Assembly: GCA_021161905.1 (NCBI GenBank)
Contig: JAGGZT010000020.1
Location: 1-42,358 of the forward strand
Source: Acidobacteriota bacterium
Lineage (GTDB): Bacteria; Acidobacteriota; B3-B38; Guanabaribacteriales; JAGGZT01
Direction: 5' to 3'
Length of the DNA stretch: 42,358 nucleotides
Made by a program: the position numbers and the translations under genes. The notes below the pieces were generated by a model. That model ran no database searches and was not told the origin of the DNA. It saw only the letters and a list, made by a program, of their open reading frames with translations. Each line of letters opens with the position of its first letter. Position 1 is the stretch's first letter. Of the stretch, positions 10,696-20,787 are shown one piece after another.

Positions 10696-12999
10696 ATGGA
10701 GGAGGGACGAGTAAGGGTTCTTCTACTCGAGGACGAACCCGACCACAGCGAGCTTATAAGACTCCACCTAACTGAGGAACAGGAGATAGAGGTGGAGTGT
10801 GTCTCCTCTCTCTCCGAGGCAAGAGAGATCTTGAAGGAGAAGGAGGTCGATGTAGTAGTAGCCGATTATGTTCTCGGTGAGGAGCGGGGGACTTTCCTTC
10901 TTAGGGAATTTGGCTCAGGGGATCGGAAGATCCCCTTCATTTTTCTCACCGGCAAGGGGGACGAGAGGGTAGCGCAGGAAGCGCTTAAACTGGGAGCTGA
11001 TGATTATCTCACCAAGGATGAGGTCTTTGCCGATTTCTCCCTTCTTCTCGGGAGTATAAAGCGAGTGGTTTCCTATCGTCAAGCGTTATCCTTCAGAGAG
11101 AAGCTTGAGAGCGAGCTTAGATTACATCGCCAGCTTAATGAGGAGATAGTTCGACAATCACCTTTTGGTATCGCTTTGATCGACCGGGAGGGAAACCTAA
11201 TTTTTGGAAATCCCGCCTTGTTTTCCATAATGGGCTTAAGCCCTGATGAACTGGTAGGACGAAGCATATTCTCGTTGGAGACGATGGAGCTCTTTGGCAT
11301 CTTGGATGATCTCCGTCAGTCCTTTACTGAGGGGAGACCGTTTGAGGTAAGAGATGCTGCTTTCATCACCCCTATTGCTGACCGGAAGCTTTATCTCAGC
11401 TGGGTTGGCACTCCACTCAGGAATGAACGAGGGGAGGTAGATCGAGTTCTCGTCTTTGTAATGGATACAACCAAGCAAAAACAGGCGGAAGAAAGGGCGA
11501 GGTTGCTTATCAAGAGGTTGAGGGCGGGAGCTAAGCTCAGTCGTTCCCTTCTTTTTAACCTCGATTTTCCTGAGGCTCTGTTGCTTTTGGGGAAGGAGGT
11601 GAGCAAGGTCTTTCCCCACTTGCTCTCCCTCTCTTTTATTGAGGGAGGTACGGGAAGTAGCTGTATAGCTCGATATCTTCCCAAGGAGAAAAAACTGGTT
11701 CTTTATGATTCCAATGAGGTTGGTTTAAGAAGTGGGAGGCTTCGGTTTCTTCTCGATTATCAACGACCCTTCTTGGTGAAAAAGATCCTTCCTCAGATTT
11801 GGTCAGAACGGGAAAGGAACTTTTTTGGAGATAAAGCCCAATCCCTTGCCTTTCTCCCCCTTGAGGTGGGAGGGCGTTTCTTTGGAGTGTTGCTGGCAAG
11901 TTTTGGCGGGGAGATAACCCCGGAAGCGGACTTTGGTTTTTTGAAGGACCTTGCCTTGAACCTCTCCCTCGCCCTCGAACGGACCAGGCTTTATCAGGAG
12001 CTTAAGCGTTCTCACGAGCAGGTGGTAATGCTCAACCAGCTGAGTAAGAGGTTGAACTCGGTGTTGGACCCTAAGGAGATAGTGAAGATCGCTGTTTCTG
12101 AACTTCCCGGAATATTGGGGATTAGGCTCTGCTCCATCTTCCTCTACGATCCGAGGGCAAAGACCCTCCGCCTCCTTGGACATAATCACCCAGATTTGGG
12201 GAAGAATATCGAGATCGTCATCTCGGCAGAAAGGGATTCCCTCATAAGTAAGGTCGCCTCGCAGAAGGAACCCCTTTTGGTTAAGGATGTGGAGAAGGAG
12301 CTCGGTATCTCCAATAAGGTTAAGTATAGGTCGAGCTCTTACCTCGGGGTGCCACTGGTATTGGGAGATGAGCTCATCGGGGTGCTCAATTTAAATGATA
12401 AGGTGAATGGGGAGGAGTTTTCCGAGGCGGACTTGGGGGTGGTGACTGCGGTAGCAGAGCACCTTGCCGCCGCTTTAGGCAACGCCCTTCGTTATCGGTA
12501 TACCCTTGATCTCTCCCAGCGGGATGGACTAACCAATCTATATAGCCATCGTTTCTTCCAAGAGGCTTTGGCTCGGGAGATAGCTCGGGTGGAGCGTTAT
12601 GGGACTAAGCTCACCCTTCTTATGGGGGACCTCGATCACTTTAAGAACATAAACGATCGTTACGGACATCAAGTGGGAGACCTGATCCTGAAGGGGATCG
12701 CTCTTATTCTGAAGGGTGATACTCGACTTTCGGACACGGTGGCGAGATATGGGGGCGAGGAGTTCGCCATTATTCTTCCCGATACCAACGGCGATCAGGG
12801 TTTCGCTATGGCAGAGAGGATAAGAAAGAGGGTGGAGGAGAAGCTCTTTTCCACCCCAGCGGGAAGGCTTACCATAACCATTAGTTTCGGTGTTGCCGAA
12901 TATAAGGAGAAGATGAAACCCTCGGAGCTGATCGAGCTTGCCGACCGCGCCCTCTATCGAGCTAAGACCAGTGGCAGGAATCGGGTAGAGCTTGCCTGA
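10696..12999 (+). CDS. Response regulator diguanylate cyclase (REC-PAS-GAF-GAF-GGDEF)
   Basis: The protein has 767 aa. The receiver domain (about 6-115) has the LLLEDE acidic pocket, phospho-acceptor D57 and a YLTKDE lysine. A PAS domain follows (about 150-265, SPFGIALIDREGNLIFGNPA), then two GAF domains (about 280-425 and 450-600). The cyclase domain (about 605-765) has an intact GGEEF at 686-690 and the product-inhibition motif RLSD at 677-680, spaced as in PleD. It should make cyclic di-GMP and be feedback-inhibited. No transmembrane segment is seen, so it is cytoplasmic. No partner histidine kinase gene lies nearby. It sits 24 bases after ackA; its 3' end faces comF with 15 bases between. 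Confidence 0.93.
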   Translation: MEEGRVRVLLLEDEPDHSELIRLHLTEEQEIEVECVSSLSEAREILKEKEVDVVVADYVLGEERGTFLLREFGSGDRKIPFIFLTGKGDERVAQEALKLGADDYLTKDEVFADFSLLLGSIKRVVSYRQALSFREKLESELRLHRQLNEEIVRQSPFGIALIDREGNLIFGNPALFSIMGLSPDELVGRSIFSLETMELFGILDDLRQSFTEGRPFEVRDAAFITPIADRKLYLSWVGTPLRNERGEVDRVLVFVMDTTKQKQAEERARLLIKRLRAGAKLSRSLLFNLDFPEALLLLGKEVSKVFPHLLSLSFIEGGTGSSCIARYLPKEKKLVLYDSNEVGLRSGRLRFLLDYQRPFLVKKILPQIWSERERNFFGDKAQSLAFLPLEVGGRFFGVLLASFGGEITPEADFGFLKDLALNLSLALERTRLYQELKRSHEQVVMLNQLSKRLNSVLDPKEIVKIAVSELPGILGIRLCSIFLYDPRAKTLRLLGHNHPDLGKNIEIVISAERDSLISKVASQKEPLLVKDVEKELGISNKVKYRSSSYLGVPLVLGDELIGVLNLNDKVNGEEFSEADLGVVTAVAEHLAAALGNALRYRYTLDLSQRDGLTNLYSHRFFQEALAREIARVERYGTKLTLLMGDLDHFKNINDRYGHQVGDLILKGIALILKGDTRLSDTVARYGGEEFAIILPDTNGDQGFAMAERIRKRVEEKLFSTPAGRLTITISFGVAEYKEKMKPSELIELADRALYRAKTSGRNRVELA

Positions 13000-13014: not shown

Positions 13015-13755
13015 CTATGGGGTTCGAGCAAGGGTAAAGACGAAAACCTCCTTGGCTCCAGCGGAAAGGAGGGTGCGAGTGCATTCATCGGCGGTCGCCC
13101 CGGTGGTGAGGATGTCATCGACGAGGAGGATCTTTTTCCCGCCGAGGGAGATGTTCCCCCTTTTTGCTACGGTGAAAGCCCCTTTCACTACCTTCAATCT
13201 CTCCGTTCGGGTAAGAGAGGACTGAGGTGGAGTGGGTTTTACCTTTCTTAGAAGATTTGAGGTAAAGGGCAAACCCGTCCTTTTTGCCATCTCCTTTGCA
13301 AGGAGTGCCGACTGGTTGAAACCCCGCTCTCGCTCTCTCTTGGGATGGAGGGGAACGGGAACCACCAGATCAACACTGAGTAATTCGGGATAGGAGGAGA
13401 GGGCTTTCCACATAAGCTGGGAAAGGAAGGGAAGAAGCGTTTTCTTTTTCCCAAATTTGAAGCTATGAATCAGCTCTCGTCCCACCCCTTCATAGGCAAA
13501 GGCGGATCGCGCCATCTTGAAGTGTCGCTTTCCCGAGAGACATTCAGCACAGAGGTGTTTACTGGGGTAGGAGATGTCATAGGGAAGACCACATAGGGGG
13601 CAGAAGGGCGGAGATATAAGTTTCAGTTCGTTGAGACATTGGGGGCAGAGGAATCCTTCGGGGATAAACTTACCACAGCTTAAACAGAAGGCGGGATAGA
13701 TAAGAGATAAAATTGCCTCTTTCCCCTTGAAGAGGATTTTCCGCAGCCCGTTCAT
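13015..13755 (-). CDS. comF: ComF family protein (phosphoribosyltransferase fold)
   Basis: The protein has 246 aa. The N-terminus carries a zinc-ribbon-like set of CxxC pairs (CLSCGKF, CPQC, CPLCGLPY, CAEC). The C-terminal part is a PRTase-type fold with VPVPLHPKRERERGFNQS and the PRPP-loop signature ILLVDDILTTGAT. In Gram-positive and some Gram-negative bacteria ComF acts in DNA uptake; its role here is unknown. It is the last gene of the rplU-to-comF block. Only seven bases separate it from the stop of the LapA-LapB fusion upstream, so they are probably cotranscribed. A lone PRTase of other function is the main alternative. Confidence 0.9.
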   Translation of the reverse strand: MNGLRKILFKGKEAILSLIYPAFCLSCGKFIPEGFLCPQCLNELKLISPPFCPLCGLPYDISYPSKHLCAECLSGKRHFKMARSAFAYEGVGRELIHSFKFGKKKTLLPFLSQLMWKALSSYPELLSVDLVVPVPLHPKRERERGFNQSALLAKEMAKRTGLPFTSNLLRKVKPTPPQSSLTRTERLKVVKGAFTVAKRGNISLGGKKILLVDDILTTGATADECTRTLLSAGAKEVFVFTLARTP

Positions 13756-13762
13756 TTATATA

Positions 13763-15136
13763 TCAATCCACCCGGGGCGGATGAACTGGTGCTTCAGGAG
13801 GGGTGAGTTCCTTTGGAGAGGCAAGCTCTTTTGGAATGATGAGTTCTATCGTATTCCAACGGAGGCAATTATCACACCGTTCCTGCCACGCCTCATAGGT
13901 CTTTCCACAGAGGCGACAACGGTAATAATCATAAAAGAGTTTTGCCCGCTCGATGATGTTCCTAAGCCTTTGGGTTGCCTCCCGGTAATCTCCCCGTTTG
14001 AGGTAGAGCTCAGCGAGGAGGAGATCGATATCGAAGGAGTACTCTATTCTGCCGTCGATCTCGTTTGCCTCGGCCATCGCTTCATCTATCATCTCGAGTT
14101 TATAATAGAGCTTGGCGAGATAGAACCTCACTGGAATATCGCGCGATGCCTCCTTCAGTGCCTTTTGGTAAAGAGAGATAGCATAAGTGGGGTCCTCCTG
14201 GGAGAGGAGATATCCCTCCGCCAGTTTAAGGAGGAGAGGGTTTTCCGTAGCCCGGAAGCCATCGAGTATCATTTCCTCCCCCCCTTTGTTCTCCTGGTAG
14301 AGGATCTTGAAGAGCCGGAAATAGGCGGGTATGAACTTAGGGTGGCTCTTGATTATCTTCCGGAGGGAGTTTAAGGCCTCCTTTCTCTTCCCTTCGTCAA
14401 GGCGGAGGAGGATGAGTTGATAGTCGAGTCCCAAGAGTACCTCCTCCTCTTTTCTCCTTTCCTCTTCCTCCTCTCGAACCAGTCGAATAATCTCTTCCGT
14501 AAGTTCCCGTGCTTCCTCTATCCGGTCCTTTCTGGTAGCGATATCCCTCAATTCTCGATAAGCGGAGATCTGCCATTTTGTCTCTTTCTCTTTAAGGAGC
14601 TTTTTAAGAAGAGAGATGGCCTGTTTTTCCTTCCCTGCTCCAATGTAATCTTGGGCGAGGGAGAGGAGGAGTTTCGGATCGCTTGGGTTTATCATCTTGG
14701 CGCTTAAATGGAGGTTTACCGCCTCTTCATATTTTCCCCGGAGGCGAAGGATATCACCACCAGCGAGGAGAGCCTGGTAGTTTTTCGGGTCTTCCTCCAG
14801 TATCTTTTCGATAGTAGAGAAAGCCTCTTCGGGCTTTCCTTGGGAGAGCTGTTCCATCGCCTTTATATATAGCTCTCTGGTCTTCTCCTCCTTTTCTCTC
14901 CGTCTTTTTTCCCTTAAATTGGCGAGGAGAAGGCGGGAGTTCCTGATGAGGAGCCAGATGACCGAGGTAAGGAAGCCAGCTAAGAGGAAGATATAAAGGA
15001 AGAGCCAGAATGAGCCGGTGAACTTCCAGAAGTAAAGGTTTAAGGTCAACTGCTCTCTGTTCAGAGCAGCTACAAGGATGAGGAAACTCACCACTACGAA
15101 TATAAGCAACAGAGAGAAAAAGGTTCTTAAATTCAT
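13763..15136 (-). CDS. LapA-LapB fusion: membrane anchor, TPR repeats, rubredoxin-like metal site
   Basis: The protein has 457 aa. Residues 1-70 look like LapA (DUF1049): two transmembrane helices at about 6-25 and 42-64, with NREQLTLNLYFWKF between them. A charged linker leads to a long tetratricopeptide array (about 85-400). The end has the LapB metal module: C407-x2-C410 and C421-x2-C424, followed by RWNTIEL. In E. coli, LapA and LapB (YciM) are separate neighbouring genes; LapB steers FtsH degradation of LpxC and so sets lipopolysaccharide synthesis. Here one polypeptide holds both. The last 20 or so residues are Pro/Glu-rich. An outer membrane with LPS is implied but not shown by this window. 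Confidence 0.85.
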   Translation of the reverse strand: MNLRTFFSLLLIFVVVSFLILVAALNREQLTLNLYFWKFTGSFWLFLYIFLLAGFLTSVIWLLIRNSRLLLANLREKRRREKEEKTRELYIKAMEQLSQGKPEEAFSTIEKILEEDPKNYQALLAGGDILRLRGKYEEAVNLHLSAKMINPSDPKLLLSLAQDYIGAGKEKQAISLLKKLLKEKETKWQISAYRELRDIATRKDRIEEARELTEEIIRLVREEEEERRKEEEVLLGLDYQLILLRLDEGKRKEALNSLRKIIKSHPKFIPAYFRLFKILYQENKGGEEMILDGFRATENPLLLKLAEGYLLSQEDPTYAISLYQKALKEASRDIPVRFYLAKLYYKLEMIDEAMAEANEIDGRIEYSFDIDLLLAELYLKRGDYREATQRLRNIIERAKLFYDYYRCRLCGKTYEAWQERCDNCLRWNTIELIIPKELASPKELTPPEAPVHPPRVD

Positions 15137-15209: not shown

Positions 15210-15584
15210 TTATTTAATTAACCCCTTATCCTGAAGTTCTTGGCATTTGATACAATGCCTTGCCCAAGGAACGGCATCAAGCCTTTTTTTGCTTATCCTT
15301 TCGCCACATTCCTGGCAGTAACCGTAGGTTCCCTTGGCGATCCGCTCCAGTGCCTCCTTTATAAGCCGGAGGAGGCGGCGATCAGCATCGGAAAGGGCAA
15401 AGAGGAACTCCCGTTCATATTCGAGCGCTGCCTGATCTGCCAGATCCCTGATGCCATCGTCAGGAGTTTCCTTAGTGTAATCCCTATTCTTGAGGTAATA
15501 CTGTAAAAGCTCCCTCTGTTTCTTTTGAAGTTTCTCTTTATAATACTCCAAGGTTTTCTTGGTCAGCCCCATTTTTGACCTCAT
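15210..15584 (-). CDS. DksA/TraR family zinc-finger protein
   Basis: The protein has 124 aa. The N-terminal half is a helical hairpin (LTKKTLEYYKEKLQKKQREL onward). The C-terminal half is the DksA-type zinc finger GTYGYCQECGERISKKRL with the second pair in RHCIKC. Proteins of this type bind the RNA polymerase secondary channel and tune transcription of stable RNA genes; some are sporulation- or stress-specific variants. The hairpin tip acidic pair of true DksA (DxxDxA) is matched by ALSDADRR, so a DksA-like role is plausible. The first ATG overlaps the rsfS stop (ATGA). A second in-frame ATG at 15572 has GAGGT five bases upstream and may be the real start. Confidence 0.88.
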   Translation of the reverse strand: MRSKMGLTKKTLEYYKEKLQKKQRELLQYYLKNRDYTKETPDDGIRDLADQAALEYEREFLFALSDADRRLLRLIKEALERIAKGTYGYCQECGERISKKRLDAVPWARHCIKCQELQDKGLIK

Positions 15585-15961
15585 TCTTCAAGTTTATCCA
15601 GTTCGATCCTTGGCGCATCTGCCCAAAGCTTTTCCAGTTCGTAATACTCCCTTGTCTCCGGGAGAAAGATGTTGACGATAAAGTCGATGTAATCGATCAA
15701 TATCCATTTCCCGTACTCATATCCTTCGATGTGATATGGGGATAGTTCCTTTCTCTCCAACTCCTCCCTAACCGCGTCGGAGATGGTCTGGGTCTGTTTC
15801 GTCGATGTCCCGCTACAGATGATGAAATAGTCGGTGAACGAAGCGATCTCCCGCACATCGAGGACGGTCAAGTCAAACCCCTTCTTCTCCCTTATCGCCC
15901 TTATCACCTCTTTCACCTGCCAAGCTATCTTCTTCTTGTCTATCGCTTTCTCCTCTCCCAT
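15581..15961 (-). CDS. rsfS: Ribosomal silencing factor RsfS
   Basis: The protein has 126 aa. The family pattern is intact: FDLTVLDVREIASFTDYFIICSG, then STKQTQTISDAV, and the C-terminal WILIDYIDFIVNIF with H near EGYEYG. RsfS binds ribosomal protein L14 on the large subunit and blocks subunit joining during starvation. The gene begins one base after the nadD stop, the common bacterial arrangement, and overlaps the DksA-like gene by four bases. It is part of the rplU-rpmA-obg-nadD-rsfS run. Confidence 0.95.
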   Translation of the reverse strand: MGEEKAIDKKKIAWQVKEVIRAIREKKGFDLTVLDVREIASFTDYFIICSGTSTKQTQTISDAVREELERKELSPYHIEGYEYGKWILIDYIDFIVNIFLPETREYYELEKLWADAPRIELDKLEE

Positions 15962-15962
15962 C

Positions 15963-16643
15963 TTAGCGATAGAGGTTTAACCGTTCAATGTATCTCGCCA
16001 CCCTTTCCGGAAGAAGGTGGTCAAACCTTTTCCCCGCTGTTATTCTCTCCCTGATCTCGGTAGATGAGATGGGTATCTCAGGCGTCTTTACCAGGAAGAT
16101 GGAGGCACCTTTTCTTTCTCCCCACTCCTTGATCGCCCTCTCCGCCTCACTGGGATTGGAGGAGGTAAGTTCGACCGTCCTCTCCCTTATCTCTTGAGGA
16201 AGGTGGTTGAGCCGAGAAAAGGGAACCCCTGCCCTTAGGTTCACTAAGAAGAGACAGTCTCCGAGGAGCTTTTCATAATCCTTCCAGGTGGTAATTTCGG
16301 CAAAGGAGTCGCTTCCGGTTATGAAGAAGATCTTTTCTTCAGGGAAACGGTTCCTAAACTCCTTAATCGTGTCTATGGTATAGGAGGGTTTGCTCCGCTC
16401 TATCTCCACGGTCGAGGGGACGAGCCTTTCCTCATCGATGGTAGCGAGTACCACCATTGCATAGCGGTGGATGGCGTGAGTGATCTCACCCGCTGGTTTG
16501 TGGGGTGAGATATAGGAGGGGACGATATAGATTAGATCAAGTCCCACCGCCTCAAGGATGCTCTTCGCCGTCTTTAAATGGCCGTAGTGGATGGGATCGA
16601 AGGTACCACCAAAGATGCCGATTTTTTGAACCTCTTTTTCCAT
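15963..16643 (-). CDS. nadD: Nicotinate-nucleotide adenylyltransferase
   Basis: The protein has 226 aa. It adenylates nicotinate mononucleotide to deamido-NAD. The nucleotidyltransferase signature GIFGGTFDPIHYGH is at residues 9-22, SPHKPAG is in the middle, and the ISSTEIR motif lies near the C-terminus. The gene sits one base after obg and one base before rsfS. nadE, which completes NAD synthesis, is encoded nearby on the other strand at 18474, so two late steps of the pathway are clustered here. Confidence 0.96.
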   Translation of the reverse strand: MEKEVQKIGIFGGTFDPIHYGHLKTAKSILEAVGLDLIYIVPSYISPHKPAGEITHAIHRYAMVVLATIDEERLVPSTVEIERSKPSYTIDTIKEFRNRFPEEKIFFITGSDSFAEITTWKDYEKLLGDCLFLVNLRAGVPFSRLNHLPQEIRERTVELTSSNPSEAERAIKEWGERKGASIFLVKTPEIPISSTEIRERITAGKRFDHLLPERVARYIERLNLYR

Positions 16644-16644
16644 A

Positions 16645-17655
16645 TCAGCCCCTCTTGACCGAACTGAAGAGAAGTTCCGCCATCCTCTCCACCAGCTGAG
16701 GCACCCCCTCTCCAGTAAGGGCGGAGATGAAAATCATTTCGCAACCCGCTTCTTTCAGTTTCGAGGCTATTTTCTCGATCTTTTTTCTCTCCTTTATCAA
16801 ATCTATCTTGTTTCCCACCAGAAGTTGTACCTTCTTCGGAAGTTCTTTGGAATAGGTGGCAAGTTCCTTGTTTATCGTTTCTACCTTATGGAGAACCTCC
16901 TCTGGATCGGCTGAGGAGATGTCAACAAGATGAACGATGAGCCTCGTCCTTTCGATGTGGCGGAGGAACTCATGTCCCAATCCGCTCCCCTTATGCGCTC
17001 CCTCGATCAACCCTGGGATATCGGCAACGGTGAATCGGCGATAATCGGGAAGTTCAACTACACCTAAATTTGGATTTAAGGTGGTGAAAGGATAAGAAGC
17101 GATCTTGGGATGGGCAGCTGAGATACGGGAAATAAGGGTGCTTTTGCCAGCGTTGGGAAGTCCTACCAGCCCAACATCGGCTATCAGCTTGAGTTCGAGT
17201 ATTAGCCACCGCTCTTCACCCTCTTCGCCGGGTTCAGCGTAATGCGGTGTTTGATTGGTTGGAGTGGCGAAATGAGCGTTGCCTCTTCCTCCGCGTCCTC
17301 CTTTAGCAATCAGAAAGAGCTCCTCCGGCTTGGTGAAATCATGGATCAACTCGCCCTTTTCCCCATCGAGGACCATAGTACCAGGAGGAACGGGTATGAT
17401 TATGTCCCTTCCTTTCTTTCCACTTCGGTTATTTCCCGAACCTCCGCCGCCATTTCCCGCCTTATATCTCAGCCGTTTAGCAAGATGGGAAAGGTCATCC
17501 ACCTCTTCCGTACTCTTGAGGTAGACATCCCCCCCTTTTCCTCCATCCCCACCATCCGGTCCTCCTCGAGGGGCGAATTTCTCCCGGTGAAAACTCACAC
17601 AACCCCTTCCGCCATTTCCCGCCTTGACATATATCTTTACCCGATCGACGAACAT
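16645..17655 (-). CDS. obgE: Obg family GTPase, ribosome assembly
   Basis: The protein has 336 aa. The glycine-rich Obg domain (residues 1-158) opens FVDRVKIYVKAGNGGRGCVS. The GTPase domain has G1 GLPNAGKS, the switch region FTTLNPNLGVV, G3 DIPGLIEGA, G4 NKID and G5 ISALTGEG. The protein ends soon after the G domain, so the variable OCT domain found in some Obg proteins is missing; that is common. It acts in 50S maturation and stringent signalling. It follows rpmA by 48 bases in the conserved rplU-rpmA-obg order. Confidence 0.97.
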   Translation of the reverse strand: MFVDRVKIYVKAGNGGRGCVSFHREKFAPRGGPDGGDGGKGGDVYLKSTEEVDDLSHLAKRLRYKAGNGGGGSGNNRSGKKGRDIIIPVPPGTMVLDGEKGELIHDFTKPEELFLIAKGGRGGRGNAHFATPTNQTPHYAEPGEEGEERWLILELKLIADVGLVGLPNAGKSTLISRISAAHPKIASYPFTTLNPNLGVVELPDYRRFTVADIPGLIEGAHKGSGLGHEFLRHIERTRLIVHLVDISSADPEEVLHKVETINKELATYSKELPKKVQLLVGNKIDLIKERKKIEKIASKLKEAGCEMIFISALTGEGVPQLVERMAELLFSSVKRG

Positions 17656-19299: not shown

Positions 19300-20787
19300 C
19301 TACTCGATTACGATGAACGGTATCCTCGAAGAGAAGAAACTCTTCTTGGCTATCATATCCTCTACTCCGATTATGAGCTGGTAGTCCCCTGGAGGGAAGG
19401 CGTAGGCGGGAATGGTTTCTATCACAAATAAGGTCGAGGAATCAGTAGAGGTTACCGCCGAGCTGGGAAGGGATAAAGCGAGTTCACCATCCTTGTAAAA
19501 AGAGTAGGAGATCGTCACCGAATTCTTTTTGGTTTTGTCATCGAGCGAAAGCCCGATTAACTGGAAAAAGATGGTCAGGGGAGCATCTCTTTTTAGAATG
19601 CCCCCTTTCAAGGGGAAGACCTGATACCCCCCAAGGTTTATTCCGTTTTTATCTTCCGCCGAACCTCTCCTTACCCCTTCTGCAAGGATGACCTTGGACA
19701 TACGGAGCCCTTTATTGGTCAAGTCGGGGATGGTGAGTTTGCGCTCAATCGCCCCTTTACCTCCGCTGATGAGATCACAGGCGCTGAAATCCATAGTATA
19801 TTCTCCAGGAGGAACGGAGAGCACTATGAAAAATGGCAATCGCTCTTCCGGAATTTTTTTGATCTCCTCTTTGTCTATCTTGAAGGAGATGTCCTTTTTT
19901 GTCTTTGCCCCTCCTTCTCCGCTGAGTGAGGCTTCTATCTCTATTTTAGGGGATAGCGTTTTCCCCTTCTCCTCATAAAGGAGGTCTTTTACCCTAAACC
20001 CCGCCCAAAAAAGTACATCCGTTTTCCCGTCTAAGCCAAGAAAATAATCCACTCTAAGCACAAAAGGAAGGGATCCCTTAGTAAGGGTCCGCTTCTCCCT
20101 CAATTTTCCTTTACTCGGCTCGAATTTCATTTCTTTGTTCACGATCATTTTCTTCTTTATTTTCTCTATAGCGTTGATCAGTGTTGGCGGTAGATATGGT
20201 GAGCCAGCTGGATTATGTATCTGTTCCGAAACCCAATGGGAATACATCTCACCCATATAGCTTAGGTCTGCTACCCGGTAATCGCCGTTTCCCGAGTAAT
20301 CTATGAATACCACCGTGTAGTGCATAGGAAGCACATCGCCTGGGGTCCGGTAGTAGGTCCAAGCAAGGTATTTCCTGAGATCGGCGGTCATCCCCTGTTG
20401 CACCTCGGAAGGGGGACCGAAAACGATATAGAGATGCCCCATCGGTGTTTTCCAGCCCGGTCGTTTACCAATACGAAACGCCTTATCCGTATAAGCAATG
20501 CGACGGAGGATTTCCTCCCGGAACTCGTTTCTCGATGTTTTTGGATTCGGATCCCGTCGATCCCAGAAGAACTTGATAAACTGGAGCTTCTCTTCCCTTG
20601 TCTTAAGCTTCTTGAATATCTTCTGTTCTTCTTTGGTTATCAGGTAACGGGCGATCTTCTCCCGCCAGGTTTTTATATAGCTATCTATCTCCTTATTGGT
20701 AATCTTCTTCTGCTGACTCAGGATAGAAGGAGAGAGGAGGATCCCGCTAAGGAGGAAAGCAATTGTTAGAAAGGATGTCCTTTTCAT
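19300..20787 (-). CDS. GWxTD domain protein, exported
   Basis: The protein has 495 aa. Residues 1-24 are a signal peptide (hydrophobic run ending LSPSILSQQ). The GWxTD domain covers about 35-190: the FWDRRDPNPKTSRNEFREE stretch, then PGWKTPMGHLYIVFGPPSEV, which matches the motif that names the family although the fifth position is Pro rather than Asp. The rest (about 220-495) looks like beta-sandwich domains (VLSVPPGEYTMDFS, then the end PPGDYQLIIGVED). The family is common in Aminicenantes, Acidobacteria and Bacteroidetes and has no settled function; envelope location is expected. It stands alone behind a possible promoter. Confidence 0.88.
   Translation of the reverse strand: MKRTSFLTIAFLLSGILLSPSILSQQKKITNKEIDSYIKTWREKIARYLITKEEQKIFKKLKTREEKLQFIKFFWDRRDPNPKTSRNEFREEILRRIAYTDKAFRIGKRPGWKTPMGHLYIVFGPPSEVQQGMTADLRKYLAWTYYRTPGDVLPMHYTVVFIDYSGNGDYRVADLSYMGEMYSHWVSEQIHNPAGSPYLPPTLINAIEKIKKKMIVNKEMKFEPSKGKLREKRTLTKGSLPFVLRVDYFLGLDGKTDVLFWAGFRVKDLLYEEKGKTLSPKIEIEASLSGEGGAKTKKDISFKIDKEEIKKIPEERLPFFIVLSVPPGEYTMDFSACDLISGGKGAIERKLTIPDLTNKGLRMSKVILAEGVRRGSAEDKNGINLGGYQVFPLKGGILKRDAPLTIFFQLIGLSLDDKTKKNSVTISYSFYKDGELALSLPSSAVTSTDSSTLFVIETIPAYAFPPGDYQLIIGVEDMIAKKSFFSSRIPFIVIE

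Follow-up and report, generated by a model that had tools for sequence, protein, structure and literature searches.

A single-chain protein with a LapA-type anchor and a LapB-type body encoded near obgE and rsfS in an Acidobacteriota genome

The stretch of DNA analyzed here (the window) comprises 42,358 nucleotides of an Acidobacteriota genome (GCA_021161905.1, contig JAGGZT010000020.1). One open reading frame on its minus strand (13763 to 15136), with an ATG start preceded by an AGGGG a few bases 5' of it (by eye), encodes a chain of 457 amino acids with a LapA-type anchor and a LapB-type body. Are these lapA and lapB fused into one gene, as the original prediction had it, and does the product belong to a pathway for LpxC control, as it also suggested? 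In E. coli, the helix of LapB binds FtsH and its body recruits LpxC (PMC9356133), and the LapB ribbon adjoins the substrate site of LpxC (PMC13333357). How LapA influences LapB is described as unclear even in this species in PMC12444477. In the literature searched, which left out most subscription papers, neither a LapA-LapB fusion nor the family of fused proteins described below came up.

Architecture of the fused protein

The Pfam domain LapA_dom (PF06305, which we take to be the former DUF1049) matched residues 26 to 86 (14879 to 15061; all parts of the gene lie on the minus strand) with 29.4 bits (cut-off 28), and reached 33.6 bits when the first 95 residues were searched alone. The DUF1049-like anchor that had been predicted is therefore backed by a profile match. 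Profile-profile comparison of the N terminus of the fused family with separate LapA proteins gave a probability of 96.9 (E = 1.4e-10, 77 columns). BLAST of the fused protein against the LapA of the same genome returned no convincing match, and the C-terminal coiled-coil tail of LapA is absent from the fused chain (by eye). In the AlphaFold model (42-row alignment, mean pLDDT of 87.9), the chain starts with a helix at residues 3 to 24 (15065 to 15130), putatively transmembrane given its hydrophobic sequence. It is followed by a beta hairpin at residues 29 to 42 (15011 to 15052; strands 29 to 34 and 37 to 42) that would face the periplasm and is modeled with low confidence (block pLDDT 58 to 62; the block means over residues 21 to 40 are 62 and 58, and residues 441 to 457 stay under 50). 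A second helix from residue 43 to about 65 (14942 to 15010) continues as one long helix up to residue 98. In E. coli, LapA (YciS) likewise has two anchor helices joined by a short hairpin and a LapA_dom match over the cut-off, but it is a small protein of its own with a coiled coil at its end, whereas here helix 2 enters the TPRs.

The TPR superhelix spans about residues 86 to 400 (13937 to 14881), as found by Pfam (TPR_19, 95.9 bits), AlphaFold and structure comparison, and TPR helices and ribbon complete the model. The LapB-type zinc ribbon occupies residues 405 to 432 (13841 to 13924; Pfam and alignment). The predicted order of anchor, TPR array and ribbon in a single chain was thus recovered by Pfam and AlphaFold, and the four cysteines of the rubredoxin-like end (C407, C410, C421 and C424) are where they had been placed, kept in 63/63 fused and 30/30 canonical proteins of a joint alignment. 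The ribbon profile Zn_ribbon_LapB (PF18073, residues 405 to 431) remained at 21.4 bits in hmmscan, below the cut-off of 25.7, and reached 26.1 bits, just above it, in the genome scan. Compared with canonical LapB by hhalign, the fused-family profile gave a probability of 100 (E = 7e-42, 375 columns), and by these profile comparisons the similarity of the family to LapB and LapA is beyond chance.

Among solved structures, the four top matches of the model by Z were all LapB chains (Z 19.9 to 21.9): 7t6d (Z 21.9, rmsd 12.3 over 369), 4zlh (20.6, 6.4 over 326), 9up5 (20.6, 6.2 over 325) and 8v24 (19.9, 5.7 over 315). The next row had a Z of 18.0 over a short stretch of 134. By E-value, Foldseek placed LapB below two consensus TPR chains, but its TM-scores were higher for LapB. 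The equivalog cut-offs of the NCBIfam LapB models, which may be narrow, were not reached (best 52.7 bits versus 363). Overall, the fused protein has in common with LapB (YciM) of E. coli and Ght of Neisseria the TPR superhelix, the C-terminal rubredoxin-type ribbon, an N-terminal anchor and the fold. It differs from them by two anchor helices in place of the single transmembrane helix of LapB, a separate clade, another gene neighborhood and the loss of R125 in most members.

A separate lapA-lapB pair and the spread of the family

The window lies in contig 20 of a 2.09-Mb genome that is listed as 100% complete. On contig 60 of the same genome, kdsB, pyrG, kdsA and kdsC (identified by reading the sequence) are followed by genes for a LapA of 116 residues and a LapB of 392 residues, both confirmed by Pfam. 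The fused gene is therefore an extra paralogue, and the idea that lapA and lapB simply merged here is rejected, since both separate genes are present. Held out from the profiles, the window protein scored 400 with the fused profile and 98 with the LapB profile, against 145 and 476, respectively, for the LapB of the same genome. The ribbon profile exceeded its cut-off at three places in this genome, namely LapB, the fused protein and a 473-residue frame that is probably RadA.

These two types of protein are also distinct across genomes. In a tree of 90 rows, from which two duplicates and two long branches of the original 94 had been dropped, a single branch (support 100/100) separated 59 fused proteins from 31 LapBs, including that of E. 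coli. Among the former, 26 Nitrospirota rows (L134 being counted there by our own assignment) and the other 33 rows each formed one side of a branch, with supports of 99/95 and 100/99, respectively. A quick tree of all 94 rows gave the same split of fused proteins and LapBs, and it also placed the fused proteins together with E. coli LapB on one side of a branch with a support of 67. Fused-profile scores were 322 to 627 for fused proteins and 75 to 147 for LapBs, and LapB-profile scores were 206 to 631 for LapBs and 53 to 170 for fused proteins, with no overlap in either case, some of the scored rows having also helped to build the profiles. This topology would fit a single origin followed by vertical keeping. 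The tree is unrooted and reads equally as a fusion of two genes or as the split of an ancestral single gene. Thus, the part of the original prediction that saw lapA and lapB fused here is weakened by the separate pair and by the distinct clade, and the gene looks like an old sister of LapB that has been widely retained. One fused-type protein (L024, in genome G027) is highly divergent, with a branch length of 2.05 and a partial match to the window protein. It was the one partial match of a protein search across 60 genomes, which found near-full-length relatives in 22 genomes besides that of the window, several of them with a second, LapB-like place too. The fused proteins of G001, a genome of the same order as that of the window, and L079 (B38) are identical, and their lapB places agree in coordinates, which puts the window genome in the order of B38. 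Another Acidobacteriota genome, G151, agrees by coordinates with the Acidobacteria record of L083. As for a phage origin of the fused gene, a single weak PHROG match, of unknown function, was all that turned up, and we rejected it.

To the phylum survey that had been proposed, we can contribute a prevalence in Acidobacteriota and a set of carriers in Nitrospirota. Profile searches of 149 Acidobacteriota genomes with a completeness of 90% or more found the fused protein in 44 and canonical LapB in 31 (17 with both), and 91 had neither at the chosen cut (at least 243.9 bits with profile A1 for fused proteins, next score 143.8; at least 205.7 bits with profile A2 for canonical LapB, next score 143.4). 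LapB without the fused protein was found in 14 genomes and the fused protein without LapB in 27 (25 to 27, given weaker second places of 121 bits in G006 and 143 bits in G046). The association of the two classes had a Fisher p of 0.0015, kinship ignored. Since E. coli LapB scored 226 with the LapB profile, an equally distant LapB would be detected, and a more distant one might escape. lpxC was present in 146 of the 149 genomes, so in those with neither protein LpxC would be under the control of another mechanism or of a more distant protein.

Scanning named genomes with a motif yielded 351 relatives; the best 80, which were all retrieved by this one motif, came mostly from Acidobacteria or Nitrospirae, with one from Deferribacteres and a few labeled plainly as "bacterium". 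Thirty named genomes were chosen from these best 80 of 351 for carrying the fused gene and are thus uninformative about its prevalence in Nitrospirota. The LapB profile found the fused protein as the sole LapB-like protein in 28 of these 30 carriers (22 of them Nitrospirota) and a separate LapB in the other two, both B38-type. By coordinates, its best match was the fused gene itself in 27/30, no match passed an E of 1e-15 in L143, and other places reached at most 83 bits. lpxC was present in 29/30, the exception being a 1.5-Mb bin. Loss of a stand-alone LapA as a rule among carriers was contradicted by a LapA_dom match over the cut-off in a small frame (225 amino acids or fewer) in 21/30, including 15 of the 22 Nitrospirota; five controls, B. 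subtilis and C. glutamicum among them, also had LapA_dom over the cut-off, so such proteins need not be LapA.

Putative clients of the fused protein

With a makeup suited to LapB-type work, the fused protein is most naturally read as an adaptor or tether of the inner membrane. With a slight leaning, based on sequence and predicted structure, we take it for a LapB-like adaptor that is anchored in the membrane, belongs to a separate, old subfamily and would have a client other than LpxC in this genome. The function that we infer would start with the anchor, fixing the protein in the inner membrane so that its body lies in the cytosol. Together, the TPR body and the ribbon would capture a client protein and retain it at the membrane, perhaps for delivery to FtsH, which is how LapB treats LpxC. 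In the window genome, LpxC would rather fall to the separate lapA-lapB pair, and the fused protein would serve another client or condition; LpxC is the less likely client here because a better LapB candidate lies among the Kdo genes. Where it is the sole LapB-like protein found, i.e., in the Nitrospirota carriers and some Acidobacteriota, it may do the job of LapB, which it has perhaps replaced in the lineages where it is alone.

According to PMC7730581, the E. coli LapB substitutions A88V, D124Y and R125L arose as lapC suppressors with a loss of LapB function. In the joint alignment (63 fused, 30 canonical), A88 was kept in all proteins of both types, D124 in 26/30 canonical but 17/63 fused proteins, and R125 in 29/30 versus 8/63, both D124 and R125 being sites of function-losing suppressors rather than mapped contacts. 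H181, another site from the same paper, was conserved in neither type. Such a pattern would be expected, short of proof, if the fold were preserved and the client surface had changed, and the best reading is that the client surface of the fused protein has probably diverged from that of LapB. The fused family has conserved columns of its own, such as N26 (62/63), R197 (60/63) and P316 (63/63). The block LYYKLEM of the window protein (residues 343 to 349; 14090 to 14110) corresponds in alignments of fused proteins to L343, Y344, R346, L347, E348 and M349, with 55 to 60 each of 63 (K346 in the window protein). These counts overstate conservation, since the block LYYRLEM itself served to retrieve 41 of the 63 rows, and several rows retrieved without it deviate there.

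The alternative is that the fused protein is a working LapA plus LapB that controls LpxC, either as an FtsH adaptor or as a Ght-like membrane tether, which we regard as possible but doubtful. Its domains are those of LapA and LapB, and the window genome contains, as had been proposed for checking, lpxC and one FtsH-type M41 peptidase, together with the Kdo genes. The fused-only genomes (25 to 27 of the 149 Acidobacteriota and 28 of the 30 named carriers, 29 of these 30 with lpxC) would fit an LpxC role too and speak against a separate client. However, it is the separate pair that sits among Kdo genes in this genome, and the fused family is a clade apart in which R125 is mostly lost. A translated search of the flanks found lapA, kdsA, kdsB, kdsC or pyrG at 0/80 fused loci (best 80 of 351), and lapA, kds genes or pyrG were beside 0/20 further Acidobacteriota fused loci, whereas lapA, a kds gene or pyrG was within about 4 kb on either side of 31/31 canonical lapB loci. 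YejM-type proteins (PF11893) had no match over the cut-off in the window genome and 14 other carriers (0/15), and one in 1/14 controls, presumably E. coli. The LpxC of the window genome ends in EGFLPEKAPSTE, without the E. coli degron, which is cited as LAxxxxxAVLA, but Ght of Neisseria is a LapB homologue although LpxC there lacks a degron (PMC12444477), so this control would be compatible with the lack of a degron. Finally, 91/149 Acidobacteriota have neither protein while 146/149 have lpxC, so control of LpxC by such proteins is not general in the phylum. The LpxC pathway of the original prediction has thus lost ground for the window genome and may hold where the fused gene is the sole LapB-like one found.

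The adaptor reading with another client can be taken further, and here we are tentative: the fused form might be a second LapB-type adaptor that has so far gone undescribed and serves a client of its own in at least two phyla, and its single chain might be ancestral to the split lapA and lapB. In any case, a family that is alone in the examined Nitrospirota carriers and found beside lapA-lapB in some Acidobacteriota offers natural cases for the role of the LapA hairpin. It also bears on what LapB-like adaptors control outside Proteobacteria, and labeling the fused gene plainly as "LapB" would be misleading wherever a genome carries both.

Gene neighborhood and the remaining alternatives

Upstream of the fused gene, all on the minus strand, are a DksA/TraR-type zinc-finger gene (15210 to 15584; Pfam) and the conserved neighbors rsfS (15581 to 15961), a nadD-like cytidylyltransferase gene (15963 to 16643) and obgE (16645 to 17655), identified by Pfam and the flank survey. 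A comF-like gene (13015 to 13755, minus strand; Pfam) starts 7 bases past the stop. The translated search found obgE, nadD, rsfS or rlmH in the flanks of 79 of the best 80 loci out of 351 (rsfS alone in 74/80), the single exception having 297 bases of upstream flank. It should be noted that this search is the better count, as the gene labels from a greedy ORF caller miss the fused ORF in 15/80 loci. A frequent order is rplU-rpmA-obgE-nadD-rsfS-(rlmH)-(dksA)-fused gene-(comF or gpmI), with gpmI, rlmH, rplU and rpmA, like kdsA, kdsB, kdsC and pyrG, named by reading the sequence rather than by Pfam. Of the 20 further Acidobacteriota loci, 16 had a gene of the obgE group and one of the other four was cut short upstream; at canonical lapB loci this group was found in 0/31. 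At the Acidobacteriota loci L068 (G012), L072 (G040) and L073 (G028), the fused gene lies outside the obgE/nadD/rsfS/rlmH cluster.

The conservation of obgE, rsfS, rlmH and dksA as neighbors in two phyla could speak for a membrane scaffold for ribosome assembly or the stringent response, and a reported action of ObgE on LpxA in E. coli (PMC12444477) could link both themes. We consider this improbable, as the order of housekeeping genes is often kept without a common function and the cluster is absent at the three loci just mentioned, which do have flanks. Least probable is a HemY-type protein that has gained a ribbon: HemY too has two N-terminal helices followed by TPRs (and, to our knowledge, no ribbon), HemY_N came close to its cut-off (30.6 bits versus 31; 36/42 family members at an E of 0.1), and E. 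coli HemY aligned colinearly from the N terminus with the fused-family profile, but it did so with 47 bits versus 117 for E. coli LapB, NCBIfam HemY gave 43.9 bits against a cut-off of 142, the top structural matches are LapB, the ribbon cysteines are in 63/63 fused proteins, and the N terminus alone matched LapA_dom in 29/31 and HemY_N in 13/31.

A promoter and terminator scan gave 6 promoter-like sites versus 3.9 expected and 12 terminator-like sites versus 7.8 expected, to which we give no weight. A 767-amino-acid response regulator with PAS, GAF and GGDEF domains is encoded at 10696 to 12999 (plus strand), and a 495-amino-acid protein with a GWxTD domain at 19300 to 20787 (minus strand), a similar gene being found near the fused gene in L062.
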